From an uncultured Alphaproteobacteria bacterium (GTDB taxonomy: Bacteria; Pseudomonadota; Alphaproteobacteria; Paracaedibacterales; CAIULA01), in assembly GCA_903905285.1 (NCBI GenBank), contig CAIVFQ010000102.1:1-20903 (forward strand): a DNA stretch of 20,903 nt, in the 5' to 3' direction. Positions within the stretch are counted from its first letter, which is position 1, and each line of letters starts with the position of its first letter. Under the pieces are notes generated by a model, which saw only the letters and a list, made by a program, of their open reading frames with translations, was not told where the DNA came from and did no database searches. Made by a program: the position numbers and the translations under genes. Shown here in pieces: positions 2,483 through 20,903 of this stretch.

Positions 2483-4531
2483 TCAGTTGGGCCAGTTCGC
2501 AGGGGGAGATGCAGACACTGTCACATCATCCGTAACTGCGTATGTTCGGTTGACTCCACTTTCCCATTTTTTGATTGAGCCATTATTGGCTTGGGTGTTG
2601 GCTACGGCGAACTTATACTGAAGAGACATCCCCACGGGAAATCGTAGGGGAAGAGACGTCCAGTTAGGCCAGGTCACTCCTGAATTAGCAGGTGTCGGAT
2701 ATGACTTCTGGCACAGCAAACCGTTCAAAGAATCAGGACGGGCTCCCCAATTTCCCAACAGGGGATGGTTCCCAACAATAAAAACCAGGTCTCCGGTTAC
2801 TGTTGTGCTGCATGACGCCTTGAAAGTCACATCATAGGCATTTTGACCTGTTGTGTTTTTGAGGACAAGAAATTTTGCATCCATAGGACCAACCGCCAGA
2901 CCTTTGCTGAAGCCAGAGCTGGATAGTGTATATTGAGTGGTGTCTGTACCGCCTGTTCCTAAGCTTAATAATTCGTTGTATTCCCCATCGGGAAGGTAGG
3001 CAGAGGGTATGCCACTATTTTTGATAACGTCTTTTGTTATTTTATAATCGTACGTTGGGTTTCTATTGATAATAACAAAACCATACTGGCGGGCTATTAA
3101 AAGGACGTCATGGGTGTAAGGCAAAGCCGCAATATATTCGTGGGGTGCATTCTGTTGTTCCATCAAGACTCGAAAGGCTAGGGAACGCTGAATTAACGTC
3201 TTGCTATCTCTTTCATCTTCAAAACGCAAGATATGAGGATTACCATCCCGTTTCGCGCACAAATAGGCAATAGCCAGCTGGGATGTAGTTCTATCTATGA
3301 CATCCTCTGGACTTTGAGACTTGCTGTAGAATCCAGTTAGACTTCCTGTCCCTGTCGACACCCCAGGATATTGATCGTGGTTCACTGAAAATGTGGCGGT
3401 TGTGATATTTCCAAGCGCTTTGGGGGCAACAAGTGTGCTGACCGGCAGACCAACTACTAGACAATTGGCAAGTGAGTAATGCAATGGATGGTCTTGGACA
3501 GGCACGATAGCTCCATAGCTTTCTAGGTCTTGAAAAGATTGATCATTTTCTCCATAACCAAAGGGAGCGTCCTGGAACATTCCTGTTGCGTTTGCCTGTT
3601 CCAAGATCGTTTTGGTGGCACTGGGGCCAAGCCCATACAACAAATCAAAACGTATACCGCAAATCCCAATGTCGCTCAGAAGTTGCATATACCCCACAAT
3701 CATTTGCTGTACCATTGAATATTCAACGTTTAAATCAGGACCATAAACCCAAGAACTTGGTGCATACCATGGATCCATGCTATTACGGGGGTGGAAAAAA
3801 GTCGTTAAATCCACCGTTTTGTCCCAGGTATATGTGGCTTTTTCTGATCCCCTGGCTGACACATAGGTGTAGGGATGAAATTGAGGACTGCTATCCCCAG
3901 GTTGATTGGTCATGTAACCAGACGTTTGATTAAAAACGGCATCCGCAATAATTTTGAGCCCATTTCTATTGGCAGCGTCGATAAGATCTTTCAGGTCTTT
4001 AAGAGAACCATAGCGATCAGAACCCAGGCGGTACCCGACGACTTTCCCATTTATAGTCACCCCGTATTGGGAAACAATTTTTATTCCTGTTCCGAACACA
4101 GCATCCAATTCTGCCTGATAAGCATCATCCAAAACGCAAAGCAAGGGTTGGTAAGAAAATTCCCAGCCATTTGTTTTTGGATTGTGAGAGATTACTGTTG
4201 GTGTGTTTCCATCTTGGGTCACTGTTGACGATATCGACGGCGTTGTTAGATGAGGTGGCGAGATTTGTATGTGGGTGTAACCCCTACTTGCGATAGCCGC
4301 TAGATTTCCACTGATTGGGGCTGTGATTGTTTCAGAAGGAAAAGTCGGCCCTATACTTGTTTGGCTTGTATAAGGTAAATCAAACGCATGATAAATTCGG
4401 TGCCCCCAATTTTGCTTGTTATTAAACAGAAGCGTTCCATCTAATGCGGAAGAAGTGATTGCGTGAGCGGGCATGGAAAAGGTTGAAAACAACAATGCTA
4501 ATAATAAGAGTTTATGCTTGCCTTTATTCAT
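2483..4531 (-). CDS. Secreted GH13 alpha-amylase with C-terminal CBM20 starch-binding domain
   Basis: The 682-residue product begins with a clear Sec signal peptide (charged MNKGKHK, hydrophobic core, likely cleavage after MPAHA at residue 24). The catalytic barrel shows the GH13 regions: region I DAVFNQ (197-202), region II GIRFD with the nucleophile Asp296, a likely acid/base Glu328 in FGYGEND, and region IV VNHD with Asp386. Residues from about 568 to the end match CBM20, with VGNHPLLGNW, a YP...W segment, LQYKF and KWESGVNR. The enzyme should cleave internal alpha-1,4 bonds of starch or glycogen outside the cytoplasm. The usual His of region I (DVVxNH) is Gln here, so activity or specificity may differ. 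The gene follows mfd on the same strand, but a probable terminator lies between them, so it is probably transcribed separately. Family assignment is firm; the substrate is inferred. Confidence 0.92.
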   Translation of the reverse strand: MNKGKHKLLLLALLFSTFSMPAHAITSSALDGTLLFNNKQNWGHRIYHAFDLPYTSQTSIGPTFPSETITAPISGNLAAIASRGYTHIQISPPHLTTPSISSTVTQDGNTPTVISHNPKTNGWEFSYQPLLCVLDDAYQAELDAVFGTGIKIVSQYGVTINGKVVGYRLGSDRYGSLKDLKDLIDAANRNGLKIIADAVFNQTSGYMTNQPGDSSPQFHPYTYVSARGSEKATYTWDKTVDLTTFFHPRNSMDPWYAPSSWVYGPDLNVEYSMVQQMIVGYMQLLSDIGICGIRFDLLYGLGPSATKTILEQANATGMFQDAPFGYGENDQSFQDLESYGAIVPVQDHPLHYSLANCLVVGLPVSTLVAPKALGNITTATFSVNHDQYPGVSTGTGSLTGFYSKSQSPEDVIDRTTSQLAIAYLCAKRDGNPHILRFEDERDSKTLIQRSLAFRVLMEQQNAPHEYIAALPYTHDVLLIARQYGFVIINRNPTYDYKITKDVIKNSGIPSAYLPDGEYNELLSLGTGGTDTTQYTLSSSGFSKGLAVGPMDAKFLVLKNTTGQNAYDVTFKASCSTTVTGDLVFIVGNHPLLGNWGARPDSLNGLLCQKSYPTPANSGVTWPNWTSLPLRFPVGMSLQYKFAVANTQANNGSIKKWESGVNRTYAVTDDVTVSASPPANWPN

Positions 4532-8042: not shown

Positions 8043-9419
8043 CTAATACGCATAATCGAAATACCCACCACTTGCATCTGGTTTAAAGCCAACAGGAACC
8101 CACCCACGCGTTGCATCATAACGGGTTATACGTTTAATCAAATCGGGCTGTTGGCCCAATGTTTGCAACATATAATACAAATGCCCTTGGCCTACATACA
8201 TCAAAAAAGGTTGAGGGGAATAATTTTCAACGTACTCTTGAATACGGGGCATGTAAACAGGAACCCATGCTCTGTCCCTGCCTGCAGCATTAGAATCATT
8301 ATTCTTTGATATTCGTTTGACACCCGCGTGATACTCAACGAAAAAGCTGTTCCATGTGAAAACATGCTCCGAAGCGTCCTCCACGTTTGGTTTTGTTTTC
8401 ATCACTGCTAGTTTATTTACTTTTTCTTGGAATCCATGGCGCGTTTCCGAGGTAACTGCCTCTGTCAGATGGTCAAGGAATCCGGTGTCCAGTCTATTTT
8501 GGGTTGTTTCTAGTCCATACACGTTCTCTTGATTCCCGTCACAATCGGCAAAACAACGTCTAATCATTAAGTCTAATCCTCTACTTTTCTGGGCAAATCC
8601 TTGTAATTTGTTATCGTGTAGAAAATGCACAATTGTTGGGTGAAGTGTGTTTAGATCAAAGTTTCTTCCCAATAAATGCAGTATTTTATTTTTCACAGGC
8701 TTTGGCAAACACTCAGCCCATGAATCTACCTGGATTCGCACTGAATCTAGAATGAATTCCCTCTCCAATTGCAACTCTCTTTTCTTTTTTTTAATAAAAA
8801 GATCGTGCATCCTCAATACTGCGCATTCAGAAAGAGGAGAGATGCTCCTAACATAGGTGTTGGCTTTTTCCTCAATCTTGCTATCTTTGAATTCGGACCA
8901 TTCATAATCCGTTAAGTACGATATGTCTGTTGCAGCCAGTTGATGTATAAAGGCTTCTTTAGCTGCGCCTTCTAACATCAGCCCACGTTCTCGAAACTTT
9001 TGAATGTTGCGTGCATAAATTTTAGATTCAGAGGATTCTTCTGGTATCATTTCGCCTATTATGTGGCTGCAACTGGATAAAAGCTGGCGCAACATACGAG
9101 GATGGAGAGTTGCTTCAATCGGGAAATTGTGACACGTGCCCCATACGTAAAAATGCTTAGGAATTCCATTGGGCCCAGGCACGCATTCAATTCTAAACAA
9201 ATACGGCCTCTGTTGCAGGGGAACTGGGTGAAGGATATTATCCCGGGTCGGATCTCCCCTTAAAAACGCCTCCATAAGTGGGTGGAGCCTAATTGTATAT
9301 TTCGGTTGTCGATGTTCAACAAGTGCTGTTGAACAGCTTGGGGCACTTTCAGAGATGGCTGCTTGACCTATATCGCCAAAAAACGCCATTAATATAAATG
9401 CAGATAAAAACTTAAACAC
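8043..9419 (-). CDS. Secreted TraB/GumN-family protein
   Basis: A 458-residue protein with an N-terminal signal peptide (MFKFLSAFILMAFFGDIGQA, cleavage near residue 20-21). It carries the marks of the TraB/PrgY/GumN (TIKI-like) family: YVWGTCHNFP with the GxxH motif at about 94-97, IIGE at 120-123, and a second GxxH in MYVGQGHLYYML (Gly410-His413) near the C-terminus. Members are thought to use a metal-dependent EreA/ChaN/TIKI-like fold, and some TIKI proteins are proteases; the substrate is unknown here. The middle (about 150-380) is longer and more charged than in the short GumN proteins. The start is GTG 9419, chosen because AAGGAAG sits 3-9 nt upstream on the minus strand and the signal peptide follows at once. 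It lies 78 nt downstream of the bicarbonate permease gene and 6 nt upstream of mfd. Confidence 0.75.
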   Translation of the reverse strand: MFKFLSAFILMAFFGDIGQAAISESAPSCSTALVEHRQPKYTIRLHPLMEAFLRGDPTRDNILHPVPLQQRPYLFRIECVPGPNGIPKHFYVWGTCHNFPIEATLHPRMLRQLLSSCSHIIGEMIPEESSESKIYARNIQKFRERGLMLEGAAKEAFIHQLAATDISYLTDYEWSEFKDSKIEEKANTYVRSISPLSECAVLRMHDLFIKKKKRELQLEREFILDSVRIQVDSWAECLPKPVKNKILHLLGRNFDLNTLHPTIVHFLHDNKLQGFAQKSRGLDLMIRRCFADCDGNQENVYGLETTQNRLDTGFLDHLTEAVTSETRHGFQEKVNKLAVMKTKPNVEDASEHVFTWNSFFVEYHAGVKRISKNNDSNAAGRDRAWVPVYMPRIQEYVENYSPQPFLMYVGQGHLYYMLQTLGQQPDLIKRITRYDATRGWVPVGFKPDASGGYFDYAY

Positions 9420-11961: not shown

Positions 11962-13626
11962 CTATTTTGGTTTTGCACCTTCAGCAGGATCAATCTGTTT
12001 CAAAATATCTTTAGCGCGTTTGCTCACCACAGGGTCTTTGCTTTTAGAGGCTGTGCCAGCCTGTACTTTTGCCCTGGGTAATTCATTGATCAAAAAGGCT
12101 TCTTCGGCCAGGCACAAGGCCACATGATCCATTTGATTGTTTTTACCATAGGCTTTTGCCAATAAACGCCAGGCAAAGATATTTTCCGACGAGTGATCAG
12201 TAACCTGTCTTAAAAGGCTAATCGCTTCATTTAAAGTTTTACCGTCGGGGTTGGGGGTTTCTAATAAAGCCTGCGCCAATAAAACAGGAATGGTTTTGGC
12301 CTTAGGTAAAAGCTTCAACGCTTGTCGGAAATAATCTGCGGCCTCAGAAACCTTGCCTGTTTCAAAACAAATCTGGCCTTTAAATTCCAAAAAGAAAGGG
12401 TCAGCGGGGTTTTCTTTTATCAGAGCATTTAACAAATTTAGTGCATCAGAATGTTTGCCTTTGCGATACAAAGCAATCGCCCGCCCATACTGCGCCGGAA
12501 TGCTTCTATCATCTGACTTATAGCTTCGCAAAACGGCATCAGGTTTGTTCATAAAACCGTTAATCTTGGCCTTGATGCGTTGAAACTTTTCCTCTTCCTT
12601 TGGTAACGATTGTATAGTCGTGCGGGGCTGCCCTTCAGGGTAAGAAACCTTTTCCTTTCCCTCTGGTAAGGATTGTATAGTCGTGCGGGGCTGCCCCTCA
12701 GGGTAAGAAACCTTTTCCTCTTCCTTTGGTAACGATTGTATAGTCGTGCGGGGCTGCCCCTCAGGGTAAGAAACCTTTTCCTTTCCCTCTGGTAAGGATT
12801 GTATAGTCGTGCGGGGCTGCCCCTCAGGGTAAGAAACCTTTTCCTCTTCCTTTGGTAACGATTGTATAGTCGTGCGGGACTGCCCTTCAGGGTAAGAAAC
12901 CTTTTCCTTTCCCTCTGGTAAGGATTGTATAGTTCTATGAGCTTCTTTTTCAAACAAAGCCACTTTTTCCTTACGGTCATTCGATAAAGGGTGGGTTGAT
13001 GTATAGGGGTCAACGTGGCCTGTGTAGCCAGCACCTAGTAGATTTAGAAATTCACTTAATCCTCTAGTTGGCCAACCTAAAGCTGTTAAATACCTAAGCG
13101 CGGCACTGTCGGCTGTTTCTTCTTGATCACGACTATGTTTTAAAAGACCCCGTTCAAATATCTGGGATCCCCCCATTAAACCAGCTATTAAAGCTTCGCT
13201 GGAACCTGTGGCCAATGCAGCGGCTCCACTTAAAAGCATGGTGGCAACGGCTGGGACAAGGGCCTGGGTTTGGGCATCAGCCGCGCGTGCGCTGTGGGCG
13301 CCAGCAATGTGCCCCGTTTCATGTGCCAATACGCCCAACAGTTGATAAACGTTTTCACATTTCAAAATTAAGCCGGTGTAAACAATGATCATGCCACCCA
13401 AAGTCGCCCCTGCGTTGACATCAGAAGACGACAGAAGCAATACTTTAGGTTCCATGCGGACGTTGGCAACTTCGAAGATTTTAGTTAACCAATCCGTTAA
13501 GGTTTGTTCAATTTCTTCGTCACTAATAAATTGATCTTTCTGAATCTCGGCTGCCTGCGCTGTCGACAAACATAAAAACAAAAGGGCGAATATTGCCACA
13601 AGGAATTTGTGCACACTGCTCGTCAT
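11962..13626 (-). CDS. BepA-like M48 metalloprotease with tandem repeats and TPR domain
   Basis: From ATG 13626 the protein has 554 residues. A signal peptide (MTSSVHKFLV..., cleavage near STAQA) leads into an M48 zinc peptidase with HETGH (residues 102-106), downstream Glu in QEETADSAAL (about 168-177) and THPLSNDR (about 211-218). Next come about 115 residues of alternating 21-residue repeats, then a TPR-type helical region (ALYRKGKHSDALNLL, EAADYFRQALKLLP). The domain plan resembles BepA/YfgC, a periplasmic protease and chaperone that helps or removes stalled outer-membrane barrel proteins; the repeat block is absent from typical members. The frame stays open up to 13746, overlapping rne, but those extra 40 residues are encoded by a palindromic repeat and precede the signal peptide, so 13626 is chosen. 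No clear ribosome-binding site precedes it; GTG 13614 is an alternative. Confidence 0.88.
   Translation of the reverse strand: MTSSVHKFLVAIFALLFLCLSTAQAAEIQKDQFISDEEIEQTLTDWLTKIFEVANVRMEPKVLLLSSSDVNAGATLGGMIIVYTGLILKCENVYQLLGVLAHETGHIAGAHSARAADAQTQALVPAVATMLLSGAAALATGSSEALIAGLMGGSQIFERGLLKHSRDQEETADSAALRYLTALGWPTRGLSEFLNLLGAGYTGHVDPYTSTHPLSNDRKEKVALFEKEAHRTIQSLPEGKEKVSYPEGQSRTTIQSLPKEEEKVSYPEGQPRTTIQSLPEGKEKVSYPEGQPRTTIQSLPKEEEKVSYPEGQPRTTIQSLPEGKEKVSYPEGQPRTTIQSLPKEEEKFQRIKAKINGFMNKPDAVLRSYKSDDRSIPAQYGRAIALYRKGKHSDALNLLNALIKENPADPFFLEFKGQICFETGKVSEAADYFRQALKLLPKAKTIPVLLAQALLETPNPDGKTLNEAISLLRQVTDHSSENIFAWRLLAKAYGKNNQMDHVALCLAEEAFLINELPRAKVQAGTASKSKDPVVSKRAKDILKQIDPAEGAKPK
12586..12933. repeat. 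63-bp coding tandem repeat with a 126-bp higher-order period
   Basis: Five full 63-bp units and one partial unit lie inside the M48 gene. Each encodes a 21-residue unit TIQSLPxxxEKVSYPEGQPR(T). The units strictly alternate between a PEGKEK and a PKEEEK version, giving a 126-bp (42-residue) higher-order period. Copies are near identical, which indicates recent expansion by pairs. The unit keeps the reading frame, so copy number can vary without breaking the gene. Confidence 0.97.
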
Positions 13627-18211: not shown

Positions 18212-19417
18212 ATGACTTTTATTCAGGTTGGATATAGATTCCTTATCATCTTGTTCTTTTTGGGTTGGGCATTAACGGGCTGTAATCAAGATCAAGATGC
18301 AGAAAATATTAGCTTAAATTTAGAAGCCTTGATTTCAGAGATTGTTGACAAAATTCGGCAAGATTATGTGGATGATGTACCGCAGGAAAAGCTTGTTGAA
18401 GGGGCTTTAAATGGGCTTTTGTCTAATTTAGATCCGTATTCAGGGTATTTAAATGCCCAAGATTATAAGTCTTTGACGGATCGTGCCAAGGGCGAATTTG
18501 CTGGCTTAGGGCTAGAGATTATGATCACCAAAGGAGTTATCAAAGTTATTGCTGCCATTGATGAAACACCTGCTTTCAAGGCTGGCATCAAAGCTGGCGA
18601 TACGATCACCCATATCAATAATCAAGAAGTGCATAAACTGACGAACCAAGTTGCTTTGCAGTCTTTGCAAGGCCCGCCTGGTACAGAAGTCACTTTGACC
18701 ATAGCACGCCCCGATACAGAACCTTTTGCAATCAAAATTAAGCGGGCCATTATCGAAATTAACCCCGTCCGCTTTAGCATGAAAGAAACTGTGGCCTATG
18801 TGCGTCTTAGCTTTTTTAGTGAGAATGCGGCGTCTAAGTTGGGCGATGTTCTGAAGGGATTAAAGAAAAATAACCCAAGGATTCAAGGGCTGATTCTTGA
18901 TTTAAGAGATAACCCTGGTGGCACACTTGATCAGGCTGTTGCTGTGGCTAGTTATTTCCTGGATTCTGGTCTTGTTGTTGAGATAAAAAGTCGTAATCCA
19001 GCCTATAACCAAAAATTGTACAGCAAGGGTCACGATTTATTAAAGGGTGTGCCCATGGTTGTTCTGATAAACCGTGGTACGGCCTCAGCCTCGGAAATTG
19101 TGGCAGGGGCTTTGCGTGACCATAAGCGGGCCATTATTATGGGGGCGCGGTCTTTTGGAAAAGGGTCTGTTCAGACGTTATTTGGTATTCCAGGGCATGG
19201 TGGTGTGCGGTTAACAACGGCACGCTTTTTTACGCCTAAGGGGCAGCCCATTCACGAGCAAGGGGTGGAACCTGACATTATGATAGAAAATAATCCACCG
19301 AAGGAAGATCCCAAGTCTCAAAAAGGGGCCATGCTTCCCAGGAACGACCTTCCAGATACCCAATTACAAAGGGCCATTGACCTTCTTCGGGGGTTGTCTG
19401 TTTTTCAAAAACGTTAG
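18212..19417 (+). CDS. ctpA: C-terminal processing peptidase CtpA (S41), predicted lipoprotein
   Basis: A 401-residue S41 tail-specific protease from the preferred ATG 18212. It cleaves periplasmic proteins near their C-termini and often controls cell-wall hydrolases. In order it has an N-terminal helical region with LDPYSGYL, a PDZ domain (about 105-175; GLGLEIMITKGVIKV, GIKAGDTITHINNQ), and the catalytic core with LILDLRDNPGGTLDQAV, GTASASEIVAGAL (Ser292) and GARSFGKGSVQ (Lys317). Numbers count from 18212. The 18212 start is chosen because AGGTAG lies about 10 nt upstream and the N-terminus becomes a lipoprotein signal, with lipobox LTGC at residues 21-24. The longer frame from 18188 overlaps the previous gene and gives a poorer signal. 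It ends the gpmI operon and may act with the preceding coiled-coil protein. Confidence 0.96.
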   Translation: MTFIQVGYRFLIILFFLGWALTGCNQDQDAENISLNLEALISEIVDKIRQDYVDDVPQEKLVEGALNGLLSNLDPYSGYLNAQDYKSLTDRAKGEFAGLGLEIMITKGVIKVIAAIDETPAFKAGIKAGDTITHINNQEVHKLTNQVALQSLQGPPGTEVTLTIARPDTEPFAIKIKRAIIEINPVRFSMKETVAYVRLSFFSENAASKLGDVLKGLKKNNPRIQGLILDLRDNPGGTLDQAVAVASYFLDSGLVVEIKSRNPAYNQKLYSKGHDLLKGVPMVVLINRGTASASEIVAGALRDHKRAIIMGARSFGKGSVQTLFGIPGHGGVRLTTARFFTPKGQPIHEQGVEPDIMIENNPPKEDPKSQKGAMLPRNDLPDTQLQRAIDLLRGLSVFQKR

Positions 19418-19554
19418 AATGTGATCCTTTTTCCAAAAAACAAAAAGAGGTGTAAATAATTATTGAAGTGGATTTAACGAAAAATTAACCTCTATAAAGT
19501 ATTATCTAATAAAATAATCTATTGTATAGTAATAAAGTGTCTAATTGCTTTAAT

Positions 19555-19560
19555 TATAAT
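19555..19560 (+). promoter_or_regulatory. Candidate -10 box for the lipid desaturase gene
   Basis: TATAAT about 62 nt before the ATG at 19622, inside a very AT-rich 204-bp gap after ctpA. The gap shows that the downstream gene is probably transcribed on its own. No good -35 was found, and in such AT-rich DNA a chance match is quite possible. Confidence 0.25.
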
Positions 19561-19621
19561 AAAAAAAACAGCCTTTTTTGCATTTCTAATTTTAATTTTA
19601 TATCAAGATTCTGTTTATTCA

Positions 19622-20434
19622 ATGAATGAAGAAACTGATTCAGCTCCGCCATCTATGGGGGTGACCAAATTGATGTCGACTGACAATCGAGAAGAAAAAA
19701 AGCTTTTGCAAAGGCCCGGCTCTTTAGCAAGATATACAGAAGCAGAACTGGGACTCTTAGGAGGATGGACTCATGAAAACTTTTTTGATAAAGCCCTTAT
19801 CCTTACACCATCGGCTTTGATGCTGGCTTATAACCTTTATTCAGCGACACAAACCTTAAGCCCTGTCAGCCTAGCCTTAGGAGCGGCGATCGGTTTCCTT
19901 GCGGCTGATGAATCATCAGGCGTTGTTCACGCTATTGGTGATGCATCAACGGATGACAAGGTTTGTGGAAATCCTTCCCTAGCCACACGAATCACATTGA
20001 CAATGTTTCCCGCAAGTTTTATGCACCATGAGTATCCGCAGAATCTGACTTTAATGACTTATTGGGAAAAAACGCGTGGCTATAATATTTGTCTTATTCC
20101 CGTTTTGGTAGGTGCTAGTTTATTAGGGGGTGTACCTGGGTATGCTTTAACAATTGGGGGCGTTTTTTTGGCGAATTGTGAAGTTTTCCACTCCATCTCT
20201 CATGGTCAATATAAGGACAAAACGTTAGTAAAAGCAGCCAAAAATGAAAAAATCATCCTCGATGAGGCGCATCACAGAGTTCACCACTATGGCAATGAAT
20301 ACAAAGGAATTGAACCTTTTACACAAAATTTCTGTCTTATTCAGGGGCACATTATGGACAAAGTTTTAAATCCAATTTTTAACTTTTTTCGCAAGTGGTG
20401 TGGGGCAAGAGTAGGATTACAAAAAGACGATTAG
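19622..20434 (+). CDS. CarF/PEDS1 (TMEM189/Kua)-family lipid desaturase, candidate plasmanylethanolamine desaturase
   Basis: A 270-residue membrane protein with a polar N-terminus (about 1-50), hydrophobic segments near 56-75, 82-95 and 155-185, and the spaced His/Asp motifs of the lipid-desaturase family (CarF, PEDS1/TMEM189, plant FAD4/Kua). These are DESSGVVHAIGD (Asp96, His103, Asp107), FMHHEYP (His135, His136), EVFHSISH (His190, His194) and EAHHRVHHYG (His217, His218, His221, His222). A C-terminal NFCLIQGHIMDKVL recalls the family's YC..G ending. These residues bind a di-iron centre. CarF and PEDS1 introduce the vinyl-ether double bond of plasmalogens; FAD4 desaturates phosphatidylglycerol, so the exact substrate is open. 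The gene stands alone between an AT-rich gap and palindromic repeats, suggesting acquisition by transfer. Start ATG 19622; a later ATG at 19655 or 19673 is possible, as no clear ribosome-binding site is seen. Confidence 0.8.
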   Translation: MNEETDSAPPSMGVTKLMSTDNREEKKLLQRPGSLARYTEAELGLLGGWTHENFFDKALILTPSALMLAYNLYSATQTLSPVSLALGAAIGFLAADESSGVVHAIGDASTDDKVCGNPSLATRITLTMFPASFMHHEYPQNLTLMTYWEKTRGYNICLIPVLVGASLLGGVPGYALTIGGVFLANCEVFHSISHGQYKDKTLVKAAKNEKIILDEAHHRVHHYGNEYKGIEPFTQNFCLIQGHIMDKVLNPIFNFFRKWCGARVGLQKDD

Positions 20435-20549
20435 GTATGCCGGCGATGAAACGATAAAATCCTCACGTTCTCTTTGAAAGTTCGCAATGACAAGGTGGAT
20501 GTTGCCTCTTTGTCGTCACTCGCCCTTGATATTCTCTCTCCTTATTGTT

Positions 20550-20569
20550 ATTCCCGCGAAGTCGGGAAT
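20550..20569. repeat. Palindromic repeat hairpin ATTCCCG/CGGGAAT
   Basis: ATTCCCG (20550-20556) and CGGGAAT (20563-20569) form a perfect 7-bp stem with a 6-nt loop CGAAGT. The sequence matches the widely dispersed TTCCCGCGAAAGCGGGAA type of intergenic palindrome. It lies about 115 bp past the desaturase stop codon and lacks a following T run. Confidence 0.6.
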
Positions 20570-20691
20570 GATGCTCTGCTCATTAGTTTAGAAATAACTT
20601 CCTATACTCAATAGAATTATCTCAAAAAACATTTTGCATTATTTGTATAATTCGCATATACAGTAATTTGTTGTTAAAATATATTCGCTGT

Positions 20692-20765
20692 GCAGGTTTA
20701 GTCTGGTATATTGAGAATCTCTCAAAGAAATTCTAAGTAAGCTTGTTCACTGTAACTAAACCTGC
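20692..20765. repeat. 74-nt element closed by a perfect 11-bp inverted repeat
   Basis: GCAGGTTTAGT (20692-20702) is the exact reverse complement of ACTAAACCTGC (20755-20765). Inside lies a second perfect hairpin, TTGAGA/TCTCAA (20711-20716 with 20720-20725), and an alternative pairing AGAAT/ATTCT (20714-20718 with 20730-20734). The outer stem may be extended by CGC/GCG (20686-20688 with 20767-20769) past a small internal loop. It could be a structured RNA or a tiny mobile-element remnant; strand is unknown. Confidence 0.5.
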
Positions 20766-20903
20766 TGCGTAAGTCGAGGCAGTTGGCTCAAAGAAGCTGA
20801 CAGATCCCATTCCCCTATTTTTGTTTAGGCTATAGCGAATCCATTTTTGAGATTGACGATTCCAGCGATGATTTTGAATTTTACGTTATATCGTTTTCGT
20901 TTA

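Follow-up and report, generated by a model that had tools for sequence, protein, structure and literature searches.

What does the lipid desaturase-like gene at positions 19622 to 20434 of this contig encode, and where would its product act? The original prediction, made on the 20,903-nucleotide stretch of DNA analysed here (the window), took it for a plasmalogen desaturase of the CarF/PEDS1 family in a presumed intracellular alphaproteobacterium. Going by published residue tests, the gene does not pass as a plasmalogen desaturase. The explanation that we hold with slightly better than even confidence is that it belongs to a divergent family of PF10520 di-iron lipid desaturases or hydroxylases that would be exported from the cytoplasm and is probably decaying in this genome. 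New in this study are the occurrence of six family members in one genome and the combination of export-signal-like starts with less hydrophobic helices in two families of the order.

Family assignment and active-site residues

The open reading frame (ORF) is real and encodes 270 amino acids, from the ATG at 19622 to the stop ending at 20434 on the plus strand. Comparison with Pfam placed the protein in Lipid_desat (PF10520) at 36.2 bits, above the curated cut-off of 26.4, and a match to FA_hydroxylase stayed below threshold. Site-by-site alignment revealed all eight histidines that are essential in mouse PEDS1 as well as the essential D100, the list of sites being taken from PMC8960569 (here and below, papers are cited for the parts consulted). 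The ordered His/Asp motifs reported in the original prediction (D96, H103, D107, H135, H136, H190, H194, H217, H218, H221 and H222) all occur at their places, and the family membership and di-iron histidine set that it proposed were borne out. When the window domain was aligned with 97 relatives, a set that omits the degenerate copies L003, L050 and L051, the only invariant columns were eight histidines, two aspartic acids and one glycine.

As query in a protein search, the window protein recovered only itself and one relative, the metagenome protein P0003; a 10-row alignment (A2) recovered three proteins among 7995 candidates scored. A sequence search of solved structures gave nothing useful, PHROGs held no family for the three proteins scanned, none of 92 pattern matches in viral contigs proved to be a relative by tblastn, and plasmids gave no match with the ordinary relative L005 as sole query.

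While the window protein shares the common His/Asp set with CarF/PEDS1 (TMEM189), the plasmanylethanolamine desaturase of the same Pfam family, it has no equivalents of two further sites. The ninth histidine (mouse H131, CarF H113) is replaced by Met145, and the F118 site is occupied by Ser132, with phenylalanine adjoining at 133. The H131 equivalent is essential in CarF, and the mouse PEDS1 mutant H131A kept about 7% activity, so that this site alone is not absolute; it is missing from plant and alphaproteobacterial homologues (PMC8960569; PMC9131029). Loss of F118 leaves mouse PEDS1 with about 6% activity (PMC8960569), and the alphaproteobacterial homologue that was tested failed to replace CarF (PMC9131029). 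The NCBIfam equivalog model for CarF (NF045946) requires 500 bits and scored the window protein at 32.7 bits; this cut-off is strict, since the CarF-like proteins P0066 (238.8 bits), P0083 (202.1 bits) and P0092 (165.7 bits) miss it too; a Jannaschia protein scored 93.5 bits. A 47-row tree, which contains no eukaryotic PEDS1 or FAD4 and whose four CarF-like rows form no firm clade, split 12 rows of the signal type described below and 10 L009-like rows from 25 others that include the CarF-like ones (100/100). The window groups there with P0003 and proteins of genomes G003 and G037 (100/99). On these grounds the CarF/PEDS1 identity was rejected.

The histidine that P0008 and P0010 have in the H131 position was considered as a PEDS1 mark and dropped, because their group has histidine, asparagine or other residues there; in alignment A1 the G008 and G021 proteins have serine in this column. 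Together with roughly 50 similar proteins among 120 listed, P0008 and P0010 form a large, mostly unnamed PF10520 group without an N-terminal segment, in which histidine or asparagine often occupies the H131 place.

The window branch shares with PF10520 at large (CarF/PEDS1, FAD4 and bacterial relatives) the eight-histidine set, D100 and a domain above the curated cut-off, and differs by its export-signal-like N-terminus with linker and its less hydrophobic helices. The plant desaturase FAD4, likened here by description only, has the eight histidines without the ninth (PMC8960569). Identity over the aligned part was 13% with the fatty acid 2-hydroxylase Scs7p (4zr0) and 12% with stearoyl-CoA desaturase (4zyo). 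The papers retrieved for PF10520 are, going by their titles, mostly plant surveys.

N-terminal segments and membrane helices

Continuous members of f1 and f8, the two families of the order in question, begin with a hydrophobic N-terminal segment followed by a hydrophilic linker, with a small residue, judged by eye, at the cleavage-like place. Under one rule, an export-signal-like segment was found in 10/10 proteins of the f1/f8 type and in 1/125 other relatives, and in all ten this extra segment precedes the domain motif by 79-119 residues. The ten are the window protein read from the ATA at 19559, L003, L006, L007, L008, L011, L012, L013, L015 and P0003; the 125 are 120 proteins, the listed part of a set of 272, plus five loci, with P0010 and P0008 standing for G021 and G008. 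This final rule adds a required distance from the domain and omits L001, L002, L014/L016, L050 and L051. In L001 and L002 a segment of this kind is present, in a frame different from that of the domain.

In the window the frame is open upstream of the ATG as far as 19478 and contains a signal-peptide-like stretch (Table 1). No ATG, GTG or TTG occurs in frame within or before 19559-19621. Such a stretch arose in 22 of 200,000 resamples of the window flank, under criteria fixed after it had been seen. The ATG at 19622 may not be the original start of the gene; translation of the window copy may today leave out the signal, or may have ceased altogether. The flank was originally described as AT-rich with repeats: the 204 bases before the ATG contain 21% G+C, in agreement with the first part, while the only repeat found in 19400-20903 is a weak 16-nt one in three copies.

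Analysis of the helices revealed lower hydrophobicity in the signal type. The best 19-residue segment of transmembrane helices (TM) 1/2 scored 1.39 in 12 signal-type rows against 2.03 in 115 rows of relatives, and that of TM3/4 scored 1.58 (12 rows) against 2.07 (125 rows), with overlapping ranges in both cases; P0008 and P0010 lie on the ordinary side. Effectors that intracellular bacteria export and that insert into membranes share the lowered helix hydrophobicity (PMC6110835; PMC12981334), and most of the type III/IV membrane effectors tested have helices just under the targeting threshold (PMC6110835). Those effectors use type III/IV secretion, whereas the window family would use a Sec-like signal.

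Copies in the genome and across the order

The bacterium's own genome (G000) has six family members, comprising four PF10520 loci together with L050 and L051. The latter two have no Pfam match; a profile built from the branch detected them (E 3.6e-5 and 9.9e-5), and a profile-profile comparison backed their membership (E 5e-8, probability 95%). The gene, first described as isolated, is so in terms of gene order and not in terms of the genome, where it has five further relatives. All six copies are flawed as assembled. L001 and L002 are frameshifted, and L003 is a continuous frame that has lost four sites (R, N, N and Y at H96, D100, H122 and H218). L050 and L051 retain some of the membrane region as well as the signal-like segment, have NQ in place of HH, lack the tail and have lost 8/9 sites. 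Because each of the four PF10520 copies is located no more than about 1.5 kb from a contig end, assembly errors could account for some of the breaks; L050 and L051 are further from the ends. L050 (G000:C93, 170-1057) and L051 (G000:C100, 737-1645, minus strand) are near-identical in their first 26 residues and diverged in the remainder. A dispersed motif, TTAAAAGTCTCTAA, was found with at most one mismatch at 21 places in this genome, G000:C173:87-100 and C183:88-101 among them, against 2 for the reversed control; every one of the 9 forward places is no more than about 210 bases from the start of a contig, and two have a family copy downstream.

Seven of the 42 genomes of the order carry the family, G000 included. 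Signal-type copies occur in five of the seven (six in G000, three in G037, one of them split, three in G038 and one each in G003 and G034), and G008 and G021 have a single copy each that lacks the segment. In G003, G034, G037 and G038 there are continuous relatives that retain the nine sites in full. The split copy of G037 (L014/L016, contig C41) consists of two frames repeating about 15 residues, by duplication or an assembly join. PF10520 exceeded its cut-off in 6/41 genomes of the order without G000 and in 4/380 of the rest of the class sample (Fisher 9e-5); three further carriers, all in the same class, came from a phylum sample of 398. To date, the signal-type branch is known only from a few genomes of the order and from one metagenome protein. 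Of 12 window genes compared by tblastn with the stretches analysed around L011 and L017, only the desaturase matched.

The description of the source as an alphaproteobacterium holds, and its order includes a genome labelled Holosporales bacterium; we infer its intracellular life from the consulted part of a review of Holosporales (PMC11909080). Literature searches, whose coverage excludes preprints and most subscription journals, found no link of Holosporales with a desaturase, no link of Paracaedibacter with plasmalogen and no desaturase acting as a translocated effector on host lipids in intracellular bacteria. Papers retrieved for Paracaedibacter and desaturase, or for endosymbiont lipid desaturase and signal peptide, concern other matters by their titles or the starts of their abstracts.

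Comparison of substrate and electron-donor genes between the carriers and 14 control genomes revealed no AGPS-type alkyl-DHAP-synthase (PF02913) in the seven carriers, against 11/14 controls. This result speaks against the suggested ether lipids of the bacterium's own, though phosphatidylserine decarboxylase, a gene for phosphatidylethanolamine synthesis, occurs in 6/7 carriers; host lipids would still be possible substrates. A cytochrome b5 domain was found in 0/7 carriers, yet in only 1/14 controls. G000 and G003 contain a fatty acyl ligase-ACP-reductase protein (ACP, acyl carrier protein) and a short-chain dehydrogenase; the G037 reductase is seen only in part, at a contig end, without the dehydrogenase beside it. 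Strong PF07993 matches occur in 5/42 genomes of the order, namely 3/3 carriers of the window subtype against 2/39 others (Fisher 0.0009, found after looking), and two of those three carriers represent one bacterial family. The association of the acyl ligase-ACP-reductase with the window subtype is only a hint. In G000:C105 (L031, 5078-16025) this protein is part of a lipid-type cluster with a short-chain dehydrogenase, a MetK-like protein (by eye), DUF3419 in a split frame, an AMP ligase and a UbiA-like protein; a VgrG-like spike protein at 1-1626 adjoins it.

Table 1. Positions of the desaturase-like gene and its parts within the window
Feature	Position	Strand	Basis
Signal-peptide-like stretch in frame, 21 codons, first codon ATA	19559..19621	+	Relatives have an export-signal-like segment ahead of the domain
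Lipid desaturase-like ORF, 270 amino acids from ATG	19622..20434	+	
Linker between signal-like stretch and membrane domain	19622..19756	+	Low model confidence
PF10520 Lipid_desat match, residues 94-257	19901..20392	+	Pfam profile
D96-H103-D107 motif; H103 and D107 = mouse PEDS1 H96 and D100	19907..19942	+	Alignment
H135 H136 = mouse H121, H122	20024..20029	+	Alignment
M145, at the place of PEDS1-specific H131	20054..20056	+	Alignment; PMC8960569 (part consulted)
H190xxxH194 = mouse H187, H191	20189..20203	+	Alignment
HHxxHH, H217-H222; H218, H221 and H222 = mouse H215, H218 and H219	20270..20287	+	Alignment

Elsewhere in the window, six perfect copies of a 21-bp tandem repeat stand at the contig end (1-125) and a 63-bp tandem repeat lies inside an M48 peptidase/tetratricopeptide repeat gene (12582-12933). 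An Rfam Rp_sR47 match (18902-19200, minus strand), antisense to an S41 peptidase gene, perhaps reflects only coding conservation. An alpha-amylase with a starch-binding domain (2483-4531, minus strand) and a 458-residue protein without a Pfam match at E 0.01 (8043-9419, minus strand) have signal-like starts by eye.

Competing explanations and what they would mean

The explanation that we favour, an exported and decaying desaturase family, starts from the observed family, residues, copy number, N-terminal segments and lower helix hydrophobicity. Family members would consist of a Sec-like export signal, a hydrophilic linker and a four-helix di-iron domain, and the protein would leave the cytoplasm; with O2 and its di-iron centre, an intact member would introduce a double bond or a hydroxyl group into a lipid chain of the envelope or of host membranes, while in this genome the family would be in decay. 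A bolder form, in which intracellular members of the order export a multi-copy family of di-iron desaturases that enter host membranes and alter host lipids, possibly with electrons donated by host cytochrome b5, and in which some copies have become catalytically dead partners, is doubtful. Several results weigh against export. The signal calls come from hydropathy and cleavage-site rules set after the sequences had been seen, and an earlier, looser rule fired in 28/125 others, mostly on the domain's own first helix, and missed L008 and L012. Read from its ATG, the window protein has no signal-like segment; G008 and G021, of the same order, are also without one and had been grouped with the other relatives before counting. 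The signal branch, with its long branches, is unproven as one clade in the 47-row tree, and Foldseek against the PDB gave no significant solved structure, its lists being noise. The His-side net charge is lower in signal-type rows (summed charge, p 0.005; first 70 residues of the tail, p 0.12), but as the rows are related, these p-values are too small; the tail charge is positive in 12/12 rows, which favours the inside.

These tail charges, together with a positive summed His-side charge in 7/12 rows, would suit an ordinary inner-membrane phospholipid desaturase (FAD4-like or acting at another position) with a cytoplasmic active site. Phospholipid chains are known substrates of PF10520 proteins, the four-helix protein CarF has its histidines facing the cytoplasm (PMC9131029), and in a protein with four helices a Sec signal may do no more than add an inner-membrane anchor. 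We consider this unlikely, given the constant extra segment with its cleavage-like ends and the less hydrophobic helices. That the family is dead or dying, so that the six G000 copies would all be non-functional as enzymes and the window ORF a relic, has a considerable chance, somewhat short of even: the missing standard start, the split frames of L001 and L002 and the lost sites of L003, L050 and L051 agree with it, while the intact nine sites of the window domain, the continuous nine-site relatives in four other genomes and the position of the L001 and L002 breaks near contig starts, where assembly errors may lie, argue the other way. L050 and L051, with membrane parts and no site, and L003 would also fit non-enzymatic exported membrane proteins that use the enzyme fold only as a scaffold; this is improbable, as 11/12 other signal-type rows keep all nine sites, and therefore catalysis seems to be selected elsewhere. 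Least probable is a plasmalogen (vinyl-ether) desaturase acting on own or host plasmanyl lipids. The histidines with D100, the phosphatidylethanolamine genes, the PF07993 distribution and an acyl ligase-ACP-reductase that could supply aldehyde or alcohol speak for it, and the H131 and F118 sites, the CarF score, the place in the tree, the missing AGPS-type gene and the failed CarF replacement speak against it.

The results indicate that PF10520 membership and its histidines are insufficient for claiming plasmalogens, and a tempting annotation is hereby corrected. If the signal segments work, a class of lipid-modifying enzymes familiar from the cytoplasmic side of membranes would have been relocated beyond the bacterial cytoplasm, with several copies per genome. 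If true, this would give a symbiont, in an order known for life inside protists, a new route to alter host or envelope lipids.
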